A stretch of 64,000 nt of DNA from a virus, in IMG/VR virus record IMGVR_UViG_3300025137_000018, positions 1 to 64,000 of that record; one strand, 5' to 3'. Shown here in pieces: positions 20,994-49,917 of the stretch (the first letter of the stretch is position 1; each line of letters begins with the position of its first letter). The position numbers and the translations under genes were made by a program. A model generated the notes under the pieces. That model ran no database searches. It was not told the DNA's origin and saw only the letters and a program-made list of their open reading frames with translations.

Positions 20994-21440
20994 ATGTTAG
21001 ATATTGAAAAAATATTAGAAATGTGGAAGAAAGACTCAAACATTGATGGAATGCAACTTGACGAATCTTCTAAAGACTCAGCAAAACTTCACGCAAAATA
21101 CCTCGAATTTGTAACACACAATCGTTTAGATCTTAAGAAAAGAGAAATGGAATTTAAAGTCTTACTTAAAGATAAGTGGTTACACTACAACGGAAAAATG
21201 TCTAGAGAAGATATTGACGATAGAGGTTGGGATTACGATCCATTAAATGGATTAAAAGTATTAAAAGGGGATATGGATTATTACTACGATTCAGATCCAG
21301 ATATTCAAAAGGCTCAAGCACGAATTGAATATCTTAAAACTACTGCAGACACATTAAAAGAAATATTAGATAATGTTAAGTGGAGACATCAGACTATTAA
21401 AAATATGATTGAGTGGAGAAAGTTTACTAGTGGTATTTAA
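20994..21440 (+). CDS. uvsY: Recombination mediator UvsY
   Basis: 148 residues (T4 137). LHAKYLEFVTHNRLDLKKRE and the C-terminal VKWRHQTIKNMIEWRKFTSG are typical UvsY sequences. UvsY loads UvsX onto gp32-covered single-stranded DNA. It abuts uvsW, as in T4-like phages. Confidence 0.9.
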   Translation: MLDIEKILEMWKKDSNIDGMQLDESSKDSAKLHAKYLEFVTHNRLDLKKREMEFKVLLKDKWLHYNGKMSREDIDDRGWDYDPLNGLKVLKGDMDYYYDSDPDIQKAQARIEYLKTTADTLKEILDNVKWRHQTIKNMIEWRKFTSGI

Positions 21441-22952
21441 ATGGATATAGTGACAGTTAAGAAACTTAACGAAACCTTTATACAGATACTAACTGATCCT
21501 GGTATCGAGCAAGAGTTAACAGAACACTTCTGTTTTTACGTTCCAGGGTATAAATTCATGCCAGCGTATAAAAATAGGATGTGGGATGGTAAAATACGCT
21601 TGTACGATCTTAGGCGTAAGACGTTGTATGGTGGATTGTTCCAATACCTTAATGAATTCTGTGAAGTTAGGGACTACACCCTGAAGATAGAGGAAGATGA
21701 GTACTATTCAAGGCCTGATATTGAACAAATTATTGATATTGAAGGGTTTATGAGTGAATTACGGCCTAGCGTGAACGGTAAGGGTATTATCCCCCATGAC
21801 TATCAACTTACGGCACTCTCGCTCTTGCTTTCGAAAACTAAAAGCCTTCTACTATCACCAACGGCTTCTGGAAAGAGTTTAATCATATATTTAGCTGTTA
21901 GATATTACCTAGAGACATATGATAACAAAGTCCTTTTAGTAGTACCAACAACGTCACTTGTTGAACAGATGTATTCTGATTTTAACGACTATTCTCAACT
22001 TGAGGATTGGAACGTAGAAGATAACTGCCATAGAATATATTCAGGTAAAGAAAAATATAATATAAAACCTAGGGTTATTATTACTACATGGCAATCAATT
22101 TATAAAATGAACCATGAATGGTTTGAACAATACGGCATGGTTATAGGCGATGAAGCACATTCATTTAAAGCTAAATCATTGACGTCAATATTAGAAAAAT
22201 GTACTGAAGCTAAATATAGAGTAGGTACTACAGGAACACTTGATGGAACATTAACTCATCAGTTAGTTTTAGAAGGTCTGTTTGGACCTGTACATAAAGT
22301 TACAACAACCAAAGAGTTGATGGATAAGAACACATTAGCTCAATTAGAGATACAGGTATTGCTTTTAAAATACGCTGACGAGTATTGTAAACTTGTAAAG
22401 AAAATGAAATATCACGATGAGCTAGATTTTATCGTAAAGTACGAACCACGAAATAATTTTATTAGTAATCTAGCTTTAGATCAAGATGGAAACACACTTA
22501 TATTATTTCAATTTGTAGAAAAGCATGGTAAACCATTACACTCGCTTTTACAAGATAAGATAAGTAAACTACCTCGTTCCGAGGAAAGGAAACTATTTTA
22601 TGTCTCAGGAGAAACCGATGTCGATACTAGGGAGAAGATTAGATCAATCACAGAGCAACAAGATGATGCAATTATTGTTGCTTCCATGGGTACTTTTTCT
22701 ACAGGGATCAATATTAAGCGTTTACATAATATCGTATTTGCTTCACCAAGTAAGTCTCAAATTAGGGTTCTCCAAAGTATCGGAAGAGGATTAAGAAAGA
22801 GTGCTGATGGTATAAATACTAAAGTGTACGATATTGCAGACGATCTACATTGGAAGAACAAAAAAAATTATACATTAGAACATGCAGGCGTACGAATTAG
22901 CATATATAGTAAAGAGAAATTTAATTATAAAATATTTGAGATAAAAATTTAA
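21441..22952 (+). CDS. uvsW: Superfamily 2 helicase UvsW
   Basis: 503 residues, about the size of T4 UvsW. Walker A LLSPTASGKS (~137-146), DEAH box at 237-240, TGT motif in YRVGTTGTLDG, and arginine-finger motif QSIGRGLRKS. In T4 it unwinds R-loops and branched DNA, ending origin replication and supporting recombination-dependent replication. It overlaps the next start by one base. Confidence 0.94.
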   Translation: MDIVTVKKLNETFIQILTDPGIEQELTEHFCFYVPGYKFMPAYKNRMWDGKIRLYDLRRKTLYGGLFQYLNEFCEVRDYTLKIEEDEYYSRPDIEQIIDIEGFMSELRPSVNGKGIIPHDYQLTALSLLLSKTKSLLLSPTASGKSLIIYLAVRYYLETYDNKVLLVVPTTSLVEQMYSDFNDYSQLEDWNVEDNCHRIYSGKEKYNIKPRVIITTWQSIYKMNHEWFEQYGMVIGDEAHSFKAKSLTSILEKCTEAKYRVGTTGTLDGTLTHQLVLEGLFGPVHKVTTTKELMDKNTLAQLEIQVLLLKYADEYCKLVKKMKYHDELDFIVKYEPRNNFISNLALDQDGNTLILFQFVEKHGKPLHSLLQDKISKLPRSEERKLFYVSGETDVDTREKIRSITEQQDDAIIVASMGTFSTGINIKRLHNIVFASPSKSQIRVLQSIGRGLRKSADGINTKVYDIADDLHWKNKKNYTLEHAGVRISIYSKEKFNYKIFEIKI

Positions 22953-23347
22953 TGGACATATCAGTAAGACAATTTAAATTATATAGTGGCGAAGACATTA
23001 TTGCTTTGGTTAGCAAAGTCGATGGTGAAAATTATATTGTCGAAAGACCATTTAGACTTATTCAAAACTTGATAGGTCAATACCAATTAACCCCATGGTT
23101 TCAATTTTCAGACCAAACACTATTTAAAATATTACGATCAAGAATTATTCATTCAGCTGAAATAAGTAAAGAAATAAGAGAAGCCTATATTAGTATAGCT
23201 TCACAGAAAAGAACTTTAGAGACGCCTGTCGGCGATTCGGACACTGAAGGTTTAGAAGAATATGTTAAGATGTTAAAAGACATCGATCCTAATAACGATA
23301 TAGAAGATTCCCTTGATGATGAACCAAAAGAACGAACAATACATTAG
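22952..23347 (+). CDS. Hypothetical protein with Sm-like N-terminus
   Basis: 131 residues. The first ~40 (FKLYSGEDIIALVSKV, then YIVERPFRLI) have the pattern of a small SH3/Sm-like beta barrel and parallel the protein at 37987 (VRLSSGEEVVGKV). The C-terminal half is helical and ends acidic. It is coupled to uvsW by a one-base overlap. Function unknown; an RNA-binding role is speculative. Confidence 0.75.
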   Translation: MDISVRQFKLYSGEDIIALVSKVDGENYIVERPFRLIQNLIGQYQLTPWFQFSDQTLFKILRSRIIHSAEISKEIREAYISIASQKRTLETPVGDSDTEGLEEYVKMLKDIDPNNDIEDSLDDEPKERTIH

Positions 23348-23380
23348 CTTTATATTACCCTCCCTCGGAACCACTCTATT

Positions 23381-23409
23381 ATTATACCACGTTTTCTGTA
23401 ATTTGTACA
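23381..23409 (-). promoter_or_regulatory. Minus-strand promoter TGTACA-N17-TATAAT (antisense)
   Basis: Read on the minus strand: TGTACA at 23409-23404, exactly 17 bases, then TATAAT at 23386-23381 preceded by TGG (extended -10). This is the same architecture as ten plus-strand promoters in this window. It points leftward into the antisense of the genes at 22952 and uvsW, with no convincing minus-strand gene ahead, so it would make an antisense RNA. Confidence 0.7.
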
Positions 23410-23437
23410 GGACTTTCTGCAATAAAAGGCAATTAAA

Positions 23438-23641
23438 ATGATATATAAACCTGATCAAAATGAGATGATGTTTTGCGATTATAGAATACATCGAAAGAAT
23501 AATGCATTAGTAATCGATAAAGATCTTAACATTCAAAAGTTTTTTAACTTTAATGATGGGGACACCCTACGCGTTAGCGTTAATGAAACAGACGATGGAT
23601 TAATGCAAACAACATTCACAAAACTATGTACAAATGAATGA
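23438..23641 (+). CDS. Small hypothetical protein before gp55
   Basis: 67 residues, start MIYKPDQNEMMFCDYRIH. No recognised domain; reads as a small mixed alpha/beta protein. The promoter for gp55 (23627-23655) begins within its last codons. It lies just right of the antisense promoter. Confidence 0.6.
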   Translation: MIYKPDQNEMMFCDYRIHRKNNALVIDKDLNIQKFFNFNDGDTLRVSVNETDDGLMQTTFTKLCTNE

Positions 23642-23655
23642 TTTTATGGTATAAT
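23627..23655 (+). promoter_or_regulatory. Promoter TGTACA-N17-TATAAT for gp55 operon
   Basis: TGTACA 23627-23632, 17-base spacer, TATAAT 23650-23655 with upstream TGG. Drives gp55, gp47 and gp46. Its -35 lies inside the end of the preceding gene. Confidence 0.8.
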
Positions 23656-23690: not shown

Positions 23691-24257
23691 ATGGCAGATC
23701 CAAAGCAAAAGCCACACTATATTAATAACAAAGAATTTTCACTCGCTGTAGTTGATTATGTTACTAATAAAAATAAGTTGGAAGAAGAAGGTAAAGAAAC
23801 CCCTAAGGTTACTAACTATATTGCCTCTTGCTTCTTAAAAATATCAGAAGGTTTATCCCACAGACCAAACTTTGTAAGATACACATACAGAGAAGAAATG
23901 GTTATGGATGCAGTAGAAAATTGTTTAAAGGCTATTTCTAATTACAATATTGAAACAGCAACAAGAACTGGAAAGCCAAACGCATTTTCATATTTTACTC
24001 AAATTTGCTACTTTGCGTTTATTCGTAGAATTACAAAAGAGAAAAAGCAACAAGATATTAAATTTAGGTTTATTGAAAGAATGGGTATTGAAGATTTTGC
24101 TCAAATGGGAATGGATGATGCAGGTGCACAACAAACCATGGAGTATATCGATACATTAAGACAAAGAATTGCTAAGGTTAAAACTTCTGACGAAAAGATT
24201 AAGAAGTTTGCTAAGGCAGAAAAAGATTTAGAAAAACTAGAATTATTTATGGTATAA
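23691..24257 (+). CDS. 55: Late-transcription sigma factor gp55
   Basis: 188 residues (T4 185). NFVRYTYREEMVMDAVENCL and AFSYFTQICYFAFIRRITKEK are the conserved sigma region-2 blocks that bind RNA polymerase core and the TATAAATA -10. With gp45 as sliding activator it directs late genes. Its last codons contain ATGGTATAA, resembling the phage -10 element but with no TGTACA upstream. Confidence 0.93.
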   Translation: MADPKQKPHYINNKEFSLAVVDYVTNKNKLEEEGKETPKVTNYIASCFLKISEGLSHRPNFVRYTYREEMVMDAVENCLKAISNYNIETATRTGKPNAFSYFTQICYFAFIRRITKEKKQQDIKFRFIERMGIEDFAQMGMDDAGAQQTMEYIDTLRQRIAKVKTSDEKIKKFAKAEKDLEKLELFMV

Positions 24258-27042: not shown

Positions 27043-27093
27043 AGTGTAACATAGGCTAATTATTTTGCAAATAAATGCAAATAACCCTGTACA
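27043..27093 (+). repeat. 51-bp promoter-upstream repeat, copy 1
   Basis: Ends exactly at the -35 hexamer of the next promoter and contains TAGGCTAATTATTTTGCAAA followed by a second, tandem TGCAAATAA unit 10 bases on. About 3 mismatches to copy 2 (29536-29586). Likely a regulator or UP-type element because it stops at the -35. Confidence 0.8.
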
Positions 27094-27369: not shown

Positions 27370-29537
27370 TGAATAATAGTTTAGCAAAACTTCTAGCAAC
27401 AGAAAATATCACGGTACAAGTTGGTAATTATAATACTGCTTGGTTTGATATTAAATCCAGAGTACTAGGTCTTCCTGATTGGAAGGACATGTCAAAAGAC
27501 GTTGAAGATCTTTTTATAGGTCACGAAGTAGGTCATGCATTATTTACTCCATACGAAGGCTGGCACGATAGCCCAGAAAAATTAAAGGGATGTCCTAGGT
27601 CATACATTAATGTAGTTGAAGACGCTAGGATCGAAAAAAACATTAAATCAAAATATCCTGGATTGGTTGGACCAATGGCAAGAGGATATACTTCATTAGT
27701 AGCTAAGGAATTCTTTGGTGATCTTACTGATATTGATTGGGATAATGTAAAACTCATTGATAAAATTAATCTTAAAGCTAAGATTGGTACACTATTAGAT
27801 GTTCCAATGAATTCAGAAGAATCAACATTATATAATGCTACAATGGTTACTGAATCATTCGAAGACGTTTTAAATGTTGTTAGAGATATCTTAGCTTATA
27901 CTAAAGAAAACCAAGAAGATCTAATTCAAAAACCAGAGTCGCTTCCAGACTTTGATGAAAGCGATACTGAAGAAGAAAATAACGATCCTACTAGTCAAGG
28001 TCATGATGATTTTGAAGAAGATGAAGAAGATAGCTCGAGCTCAAACGATGGTGATAATCCAAGCGAACAAGACGAGAATACTCCTTCATCTACTTCATCT
28101 AACGACGAAGCAGTAGCTTCTCCTTTACCAGTGCATAATGATGAAGATGTATCTATTACAGATGAAATCTTTAGAGCAAAGGAAAAGGATTTAATACCTG
28201 AGTCAGCAAATACATTTTATGCTAATGATATCAAGGACGTTACACCCTTTATTATTCCATTTAAAGATTTAATGGTTGAAAGAAAAAAGGTATTAGAAAG
28301 TTTTAATTATGAATTCGACGATGGAACTGTTAATAAAAAACAACTTCTTACAATGAAAATGGAAGTAGAGTTTAAAAAGTACTTAACTAAAGTTAAGAAA
28401 GCAGTTCAACCAGCAGTAAAGGAATTCGAGCAAAAGAAAGCTGCGCATCAATGGCAGTATGCTACTACAGCAAAAACTGGTAGACTTGATGTTAACAAAT
28501 TACACTCATACAAAATATCAGAAGACATTTTTTCACAAACGACTAACCTAGCCAATTCTAAAAATCATGGAATGTTTATGTTAATTGATTATTCTGGATC
28601 AATGTCAGGTGTTTTAAGTAATGTACTAGAGCAATTAATTCATAGCATTATATTCTGTAAATCAGTTAATATACCATTTGATGTATATGCATTTACAACT
28701 GGTGGAAATCACAGCTATGAATCTTATAGAGATGGTGATTTTAATATGGATAATCTATCAATGCCTCAGCTTATTCATTCAGATCTTAAAAAGAATGATT
28801 TTGAATTAGCTTTAAAATATCTTTATGCTAGAATGGAATGTGCTAGAGGATCTCATGATTATTCAATATATGCTAGATGCGAAGAATGGGGATCAACTCC
28901 TTTAAACCATGCTCTAGTTTGTTCACACAAATTAATTAGAAAATTTAAAGCAATAAAAAATCTAGAAAAAGTTAACCTTATGTTAATCACAGATGGCGAT
29001 ACAAACAGATTGAGTATTATTGAAGATAGATCTCTTAGTGACAAGAAGCTTCCTTCTTCTAACTCATACTATGGTTATGATGCTGCAATTAAAACTACTA
29101 TTGACGGCAAAAGAGTAACACTAGCTGGAAGAGGTGTTACTGGTACTAAAAGTCTTTTACAAAATCTTAAGAAAAGATACGGAGTTAACGTTATAGGATT
29201 TTATATTGCTGATTCTAGAGGCGATTTAAATAGTGCTATATTCTCAAGTTATAGAGATCAAAATAAAGATGCTAATGATTGGGATACTAGTTTTGATAAG
29301 CATAAGAAAATCAAGTTAAAGGAAAGAAACAAAAATAAATGTATCGAGTACAAAAACAGTAAAGGCTACGATAATCTTTATATTGTGTTAGACAAAGAGT
29401 TTAGTACAAACGAAGACGAATTTGAAGCCACTTCTGATCAAACTAAAAGCCAAATAACAAGAGCATTTAAAAAGTATAGCTCAAGTAAAAAGGTTAATAA
29501 GAGTTTGATGAGTAAATTTGGCCAAGCAGTAGCATAG
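27369..29537 (+). CDS. VWA-domain protein with N-terminal HExxH motif (CobT-like)
   Basis: 722 residues. Near the N-terminus GHEVGHALFTP (His52, Glu53, His56) followed by VEDARIE (~83-89) has the form of a zincin metallopeptidase site. A long Asp/Glu/Ser linker (~195-260) follows, then a VWA domain with MIDAS loop DYSGSMSG near residue 405. The layout recalls CobT-like subunits that work with MoxR/CobS AAA+ ATPases, and such an ATPase is the next gene. Such pairs occur in marine T4-like phages with unknown substrate. Cobalt chelation is not shown; a protein-remodelling or protease role is equally possible. Confidence 0.85.
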   Translation: MNNSLAKLLATENITVQVGNYNTAWFDIKSRVLGLPDWKDMSKDVEDLFIGHEVGHALFTPYEGWHDSPEKLKGCPRSYINVVEDARIEKNIKSKYPGLVGPMARGYTSLVAKEFFGDLTDIDWDNVKLIDKINLKAKIGTLLDVPMNSEESTLYNATMVTESFEDVLNVVRDILAYTKENQEDLIQKPESLPDFDESDTEEENNDPTSQGHDDFEEDEEDSSSSNDGDNPSEQDENTPSSTSSNDEAVASPLPVHNDEDVSITDEIFRAKEKDLIPESANTFYANDIKDVTPFIIPFKDLMVERKKVLESFNYEFDDGTVNKKQLLTMKMEVEFKKYLTKVKKAVQPAVKEFEQKKAAHQWQYATTAKTGRLDVNKLHSYKISEDIFSQTTNLANSKNHGMFMLIDYSGSMSGVLSNVLEQLIHSIIFCKSVNIPFDVYAFTTGGNHSYESYRDGDFNMDNLSMPQLIHSDLKKNDFELALKYLYARMECARGSHDYSIYARCEEWGSTPLNHALVCSHKLIRKFKAIKNLEKVNLMLITDGDTNRLSIIEDRSLSDKKLPSSNSYYGYDAAIKTTIDGKRVTLAGRGVTGTKSLLQNLKKRYGVNVIGFYIADSRGDLNSAIFSSYRDQNKDANDWDTSFDKHKKIKLKERNKNKCIEYKNSKGYDNLYIVLDKEFSTNEDEFEATSDQTKSQITRAFKKYSSSKKVNKSLMSKFGQAVA

Positions 29538-29586
29538 TGATACTTAGGCTAATTATTTTGCAAATAAATGCAAATAACCCTGTACA
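29536..29586 (+). repeat. 51-bp promoter-upstream repeat, copy 2
   Basis: Begins AGTGATACTTAGGCTAATT at the stop codon of the VWA gene and ends at the -35 TGTACA. Differs from copy 3 (49867-49917) at only two positions. Contains the tandem TGCAAATAA units. Confidence 0.85.
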
Positions 29587-49758: not shown

Positions 49759-49878
49759 ATGAACGTGAGTCTTATATCATATTCGCAACCCTCAGAGGAC
49801 CTCGCCCCGACAAAGGGCGGGGATCTTCTTCAATTAAAACCATTCTCTTATACCGAAACTCTTCGGAGTGATACTTAG
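49759..49878 (+). pseudogene. 39-codon ORF, possible thyX remnant
   Basis: MNVSLISYSQPSEDLAP resembles the first residues of phage ThyX thymidylate synthases, but the frame then drifts and stops inside the 51-bp repeat. The hairpin at 49803 lies inside it. Could be a decayed gene cut by the repeat-promoter unit, or chance. Confidence 0.25.
49803..49819 (+). terminator. GC hairpin, possible terminator after gp41 unit
   Basis: Stem CGCCC/GGGCG with a 7-base loop (an alternative CCCCG/CGGGG pairing overlaps), followed by a pyrimidine-rich but T-poor tail. A second small hairpin, ACTC-TTCG-GAGT, lies at 49858-49869. Confidence 0.45.
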
Positions 49879-49917
49879 GCTAATTATTTTGCAAATAAAT
49901 GCAGAAAACCCTGTACA
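49867..49917 (+). repeat. 51-bp promoter-upstream repeat, copy 3
   Basis: AGTGATACTTAGGCTAATT through TGTACA; two mismatches to copy 2, both in the second TGCAAATAA unit (TGCAGAAAA). Confidence 0.85.

Follow-up and report, generated by a model that had tools for sequence, protein, structure and literature searches.

A conserved promoter facing leftward lies at the boundary between late and early genes of the T4-like marine phage analyzed here, between an Sm-like gene and gp55, and is directed antisense to the Sm-like gene and the helicase gene uvsW. Judging from its sequence, this promoter is very likely real and active. Three diverged groups of related phages, with different -35 and -10 variants, all keep a leftward promoter at this place, paired with the rightward promoter of gp55 and followed by an inverted repeat whose pairing is conserved. 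The reading preferred here is that it suppresses uvsW, along with the end of the late module, early in infection, to which, as a whole mechanism, we assign a probability of about 0.5. As hundreds of related ocean phages keep the signal at the same place, it very probably has an important role in the timing of infection.

The Leftward Promoter and Its Genomic Setting

The window, that is, the whole 64-kb stretch of DNA that was analyzed, belongs to a record of 126,379 bases. The features around the promoter are the following:

20994-21440, plus strand: uvsY, named by synteny
21441..22952, plus strand: uvsW helicase gene (Pfam UvsW_N and DEAD/Helicase_C), second predicted antisense target
22952..23347, plus strand: Sm-like gene of the T4-GC139 family (PHROG 527/471), first predicted antisense target
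23348..23437, no strand: intergenic region of 90 bp, containing the promoter and the initially transcribed sequence
23360..23370, minus strand: dyad site of the window phage, TTCC-GAG-GGAG, weak, with 4 pairs including one G-T
23374..23376, minus strand: predicted transcription start, at purines 5-7 nt past the -10, placed by the usual sigma70 spacing
23381..23409, minus strand: leftward promoter, -35 TGTACA at 23409-23404 and -10 TATAAT at 23386-23381
23438..23641, plus strand: ORF of 67 aa between the two promoters
23627..23655, plus strand: rightward early promoter of gp55, exact TGTACA-N14-TGGTATAAT
23691..24257, plus strand: gp55, late sigma factor (PHROG 234, E = 1.4e-50)

On the minus strand, positions 23409..23381 read TGTACAAATTACAGAAAACGTGGTATAAT, or, with the spacer spelled out, TGTACA-AATTACAGAAAACGTGG-TATAAT, and all 15 fixed bases match the early-promoter motif exactly. 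A first-pass annotation of this DNA had recognized the motif correctly and misstated its spacing as TGTACA-N17-TGG-TATAAT; the spacer of 17 nt includes the extended -10 TGG, so that the element is TGTACA-N14-TGG-TATAAT. This pattern occurs exactly 11 times in the 64-kb window, ten times on the plus strand and once on the minus strand, where an order-1 Markov model predicts 0.0005 matches per 64 kb on both strands. With up to three mismatches allowed, the window holds 18 matches vs 4.6 +/- 2.2 in shuffled sequences. The ten plus-strand copies all lie at 23.6 kb and rightward, and no exact early promoter was found in the window left of 23.38 kb. The hexamers, a spacing within 16-18 nt and a motif common to the ten sense promoters identify the leftward element as an early promoter of the host sigma70 type. 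The whole record contains 14 forward and 2 reverse exact matches, while the reversed control pattern has none in the same 126,379 bases. The annotation's further statement that no other copy faces left is thus true of the window and fails for the genome, which carries a second reverse copy at 104431. Matches to the late promoter TATAAATA in the window were not above chance.

The position of the promoter at the late/early boundary, aimed at the Sm-like gene and uvsW, was confirmed by the flanking genes. To its left, the long gene-like ORFs of the window are on the plus strand throughout; to the right of the boundary, gp55 is the first early gene and is followed by gp47 and gp46, both named by synteny. 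Between the predicted leftward start and the stop codon of the Sm-like gene lie about 27 nt. A minus-strand gene as the target of the promoter was considered and rejected, in agreement with the earlier view that none is convincing there: the ORFs opposite the 3' end of the Sm-like gene range from 1 to 80 codons across relatives, with no shared length. The His codon that precedes the Sm-like stop nearly always yields an ATG or GTG on the opposite strand. No intrinsic terminator is conserved within 700 nt downstream of the leftward promoter, and the window has no match to Rfam families. Since neither a minus-strand ORF nor a terminator is conserved downstream, the leftward transcript is predicted to be antisense RNA of the Sm-like gene and of uvsW; across 240 loci, the strand opposite the predicted transcript holds uvsW in 231 and the Sm-like gene in 232. 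The match of the Sm-like gene to 3BY7 is borderline (E = 0.29), and members of its T4-GC139 family are frequently annotated as 'methylamine utilization'.

Conservation in Related Phages

Conservation in related phages, which the first-pass annotation had proposed as a check, was observed at both short and long distances. Among eight near relatives (L081-L088), 0-1 of 87 compared sites of the 90-bp intergenic region were changed (the segment comparison being offset by 3 bases, which affects the ends only), while in seven of them the Sm-like gene was changed by about 10% and uvsW by about 5%. The eighth, L081, is identical throughout, flanking genes included. The 67-aa ORF on the other side of the promoter, which is present in the lineage of the window (window and L081-L088) and has no Pfam or PHROG match, has also diverged in L083 and L088 (16-17 of 201), so that the frozen intergenic region is not explained merely by recent exchange.

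For more distant relatives, gp55 loci were gathered with three queries, giving groups A (window-like), B (S-PM2-like) and C (Mosig-like), and promoters were scored with three -35 hexamers allowed. A leftward sigma70-type promoter between the upstream gene and gp55 was present in 99% of 78 loci of group A, 100% of 80 of group B and 84% of 77 of group C, compared with 16%, 2% and 7% of shuffled intergenic regions that reached the same threshold; at the next threshold the figures were 99/65/36% vs 1.4/0.3/0.6% for A, B and C, and as the loci are related, these percentages do not represent independent trials. In most of the group C misses listed, the intergenic region measures 23-60 bases, which is less than the promoter scan requires. 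Named phages with the leftward promoter are Syn9, S-PM2, Mosig, P-SSM4 and C48C1, and a weak form is present in Melnitz. The promoter is the sole reverse match of TTGACA-N17-TANAAT in S-PM2 and the sole reverse match of a slightly looser pattern in Syn9; in Mosig it is the sole TTGACA-N16-TATAAT of the genome.

Divergent Pairing with the gp55 Promoter

The leftward promoter is half of a conserved divergent pair, whose partner is the rightward promoter of gp55. The gap between the two -35 boxes is 217 bp in the window, where the 67-aa ORF lies between them. Relatives mostly have 2-57 bp there, and the boxes of group B come close to overlapping and have sequence in common. These distances are not spread evenly and cluster near 4, 14, 24, 34.5, 45 and 55 bp. 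After thinning of similar sequences, the concentration at a 10.5-bp phase was 0.71 in 41 loci of group A (p about 1e-9) and 0.68 in 22 loci of group C (p about 4e-5), both groups sharing nearly the same phase, and the nine thinned loci of group B were not significant alone. Control distances, from the stop codon to the -10 and from the -10 to gp55, showed weaker phase concentration. Steps of about 10.5 bp in the spacing suggest that insertions and deletions have mostly been of whole helical turns, as if the two promoters needed a fixed face of the DNA relative to each other, and slippage between phased A-tracts could mimic such steps. The promoter of the window, still kept at 217 bp from its partner, does not depend on close coupling there.

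As the -35 boxes do not overlap in most loci, the two predicted starts are about 75 bp or more apart. The pair resembles the bidirectional promoters of bacteria in having divergent starts, one of them antisense. However, in those promoters a single -10 serves both starts, which are 7-25 bp apart (PMC10268837), and here there are two separate promoters with a preferred helical phase; a shared -10 was therefore rejected. That the leftward starts are the meaningless by-product of a symmetric bidirectional promoter is a disfavoured and highly improbable explanation, as divergent transcription is indeed common in bacteria and often antisense and non-coding (PMC10268837), and the near overlap of the group B boxes would suit it, but the separation of the starts, the near-consensus -35 and -10 that each promoter has of its own and the fact that the leftward promoter is more often the better of the pair in group A all speak against it.

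An Inverted Repeat at the Leftward Start

In groups B and C the -10 of the leftward promoter is followed directly by an inverted repeat, which in group A lies about 9 nt further on; its loop is mostly of 3-6 nt in the three groups. The arms are diverse, as in AACGG-TGT-CCGTT, GACT-ATGT-AGTC, GGTCT-ATGT-AGACC, CCGG-TATGT-CCGG and CTGG-TATGT-CCAG, or AACTCT-GTCA-AGGGTT, AACCTT-GTA-GAGGTT, TTGGC-AGGG-GCCAG and TATCC-TGG-GGATA. The repeat was first spotted by eye and then tested with shuffles and with the rightward promoter as a control. Repeats with 4 or more Watson-Crick pairs out of 5, of which 2 or more are G-C, were found in 67%, 98% and 71% of the unique leftward sequences of groups A, B and C (12, 10 and 12% in shuffles); the rightward promoters of these loci gave 0%, 11% and 0%. 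In a MAFFT alignment of 32 sequences, the covariation score was 0.305 vs 0.138 +/- 0.029, a value reached by 0 of 500 shuffles; this alignment mixes hairpins of differing loop length, so that its pair counts understate the pairing. What is conserved is the pairing of the arms and not their sequence.

Conserved pairing with free arms argues against the operator of a single protein and for a hairpin of nucleic acid. An operator for one dimeric repressor was rejected on these grounds, given the many unrelated complementary arms around a loop of 3-6 nt, with no fixed half-site or spacing. A 3'-UTR hairpin of the late mRNA is likewise disfavoured, as two ectopic copies in sense orientation (described below) carry the dyad together with the promoter. 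Groups B and C have an invariant TG 7-8 nt past the -10, where the start is expected and at a similar distance from the -10 as the start predicted in the window; the left arm would then be untranscribed, which would leave the non-template DNA strand as the place for the hairpin. In group A, the position of the repeat means that it could form in RNA. Folding is more often stronger on the minus strand than on the plus strand (42:10, 57:4 and 40:15 in A, B and C), which is not decisive for the strand of the dyad, as unbiased counts of G-T vs A-C wobbles (7/9, 3/0 and 9/3) leave this unsettled. In the window phage, the leader alone folds no better than shuffles and the arms are weak, so that homology is what supports a dyad in this genome. 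Further downstream of the dyad on the minus strand, group A (e.g., L031) shows a conserved stretch similar to TAGAGGTATACTA that includes a GTATAC palindrome.

Other Copies of the Element

The second leftward exact early promoter is located outside the window at 104431..104403 of the record (G000:C1:104403-104431; L099:403-431), between gp5-like and gp25-like genes and facing the gp5-like gene, and its start region is similar to that at 23409. It is kept in all ten near relatives with enough sequence and is absent from more distant gp25 loci. The phage of the window thus has, as predicted from its sequence, two promoters directed against late genes, and uvsW cannot be the sole target, since the second copy faces the gp5-like gene.

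Among 80 examined stretches with a B-type -10 and a dyad, 78 are antisense at gp55/Sm/uvsW. S-PM2 has a second block of promoter plus dyad in sense orientation before T4-GC49 (L293:4738-4782, i.e., S-PM2 162737-162781), and another contig, L472, has one in sense orientation before a different gene. These two copies indicate that the block is not antisense by nature, and it behaves as if it were movable as a cassette. A T4-GC49 regulon, suggested by the S-PM2 copy, was discarded because no block precedes that gene in the other loci examined.

Proposed Role and Alternative Explanations

In the sequence of events that we infer, host RNA polymerase with sigma70 would use both promoters early in infection, the rightward one serving gp55 and the early genes. 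Leftward firing would most likely produce non-coding RNA that runs antisense first through the Sm-like gene and then through uvsW. This RNA, together with polymerase meeting late-direction transcription head-on, would suppress uvsW along with the end of the late module, and the opposing polymerases would reduce rightward read-through from that module into gp55 as well. The hold would last until gp55 has accumulated and the early promoters have been shut off. The dyad at the start site would probably tune the start, the escape or the stability of the leftward transcript. Silencing of uvsW, which the first-pass annotation had suggested, is plausible: in T4, the R-loops from which early replication is primed are unwound by UvsW, a late product (PMC3016281), so that silencing uvsW early would make sense. 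However, since late promoters need gp55, little sense RNA of uvsW is expected early in any case, which may make silencing redundant. An R-loop origin or an RNA acting in trans would leave the same traces as silencing.

The main rival is a replication origin of the T4 oriF/oriG/oriE type, which we regard as rather unlikely. The leftward RNA would then stay as an R-loop and prime leading-strand synthesis leftward, the dyad of the displaced strand would help to load replication proteins, and late UvsW, from the adjoining gene, would shut the origin off. In T4, oriF and oriG consist of a promoter and an unwinding element, oriE apparently has an early-mode promoter, and UvsW unwinds origin R-loops (PMC3016281). 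The promoter element found here occurs once or twice per genome, beside uvsY-uvsW, the start of the group A RNA is purine-rich with clustered G, and Syn9 is predicted to have a single origin, its location not being stated (PMC2984593), all of which would suit an origin. On the other hand, no A+T-rich unwinding element stood out downstream of the start, the GC skew has no change at the site in G000, S-PM2 and Mosig, although T4-type origins need not leave one, and the sense copies in S-PM2 and L472 resemble ordinary gene promoters. A wider formulation would take the divergent pair in helical register and the pairing-conserved hairpin at the leftward start as one family-wide device of T4-like marine phages, either an early-to-late switch or a replication origin. 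Group A would form the hairpin in its leader RNA, and groups B and C in the non-template strand of the open complex or of the R-loop. We regard this formulation as possible but rather unlikely.

It is improbable that the element is only an insulator, in which leftward polymerase flow would block late transcription into gp55 and the early genes while the RNA itself is inert. Its location at the late/early boundary (uvsW-Sm vs gp55) in nearly all loci examined and its divergent pairing with the gp55 promoter fit this role, but early promoters are expected to be weak late in infection, just when insulation is needed, and the conservation of the dyad is left unexplained. Similarly improbable is a short non-coding RNA that would act elsewhere, for example with the Sm-like protein, its antisense position being incidental. 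The adjoining Sm-like gene, possibly encoding an RNA-binding protein, and the AGAGG-AUA-type stretch that follows the dyad in many members of all three groups are consistent with such an RNA. Against it stand the lack of a conserved terminator and of Rfam matches noted above, and the left dyad arm of groups B and C, which is upstream of the predicted start, so that the RNA alone could not form the hairpin.

Comparison with Known Systems

Early antisense transcription is known from phage T4, in which 'anti-late' early RNA is complementary to late messages. The RNA predicted here would pair with late messages in the same way, also early and in a T4-type phage; unlike in T4, its source would be a single promoter, fixed in position and near consensus, that has a dyad and a divergent partner and is conserved throughout the family. 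The T4 origin oriF is the uvsY origin. Similarities with the T4 origins oriF, oriG and oriE include a promoter near recombination genes, the link to UvsW and, for oriE, an apparently early-mode promoter (PMC3016281), while the present element differs from T4 R-loop origins in having a dyad. In T4-like cyanophages, an antisense non-coding RNA has been described in S-PM2, namely CfrI, of about 225 nt, which is expressed at psbA and a homing endonuclease gene (PMC2984593, PMC5931967). The predicted RNA shares the antisense, non-coding character of CfrI and differs from it in its location at Sm/uvsW/gp55 rather than psbA and in being predicted, where expression of CfrI was shown.

Within the open literature searched, to which many subscription papers and among them a start-site study of Syn9 do not belong, no account was found of an antisense promoter lying between the Sm-like gene and gp55. 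Antisense promoters of phages are known as such; what is new is a family-wide one with a helically phased partner and a start-site dyad conserved in its pairing. Phages of the Kyanoviridae type lack motA, asi and the T4 genes for the modification of RNA polymerase (PMC2984593). They are abundant in the ocean, and the timing of their early, late and replication programmes is poorly known. A near-consensus antisense promoter kept at one site by phages that infect Synechococcus, Prochlorococcus and Pelagibacter is a concrete candidate control point, for which Syn9, S-PM2, Mosig and other cultured phages would be suitable test cases; if the R-loop explanation were true, the element would locate an origin in these phages.

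Sequences Upstream of the Early Promoters

Three plus-strand early promoters of the window, at 27043-27093, 29536-29586 and 49867-49917, share about 45 near-identical upstream bases (..TAGGCTAATTATTTTGCAAATAAATGCARAWAACCC-TGTACA), a block that resembles an UP element or an activator site. A shortened form of this block stands upstream of the leftward promoter; it is similar to the stretch that separates the two promoters in relatives such as L005 and L019.
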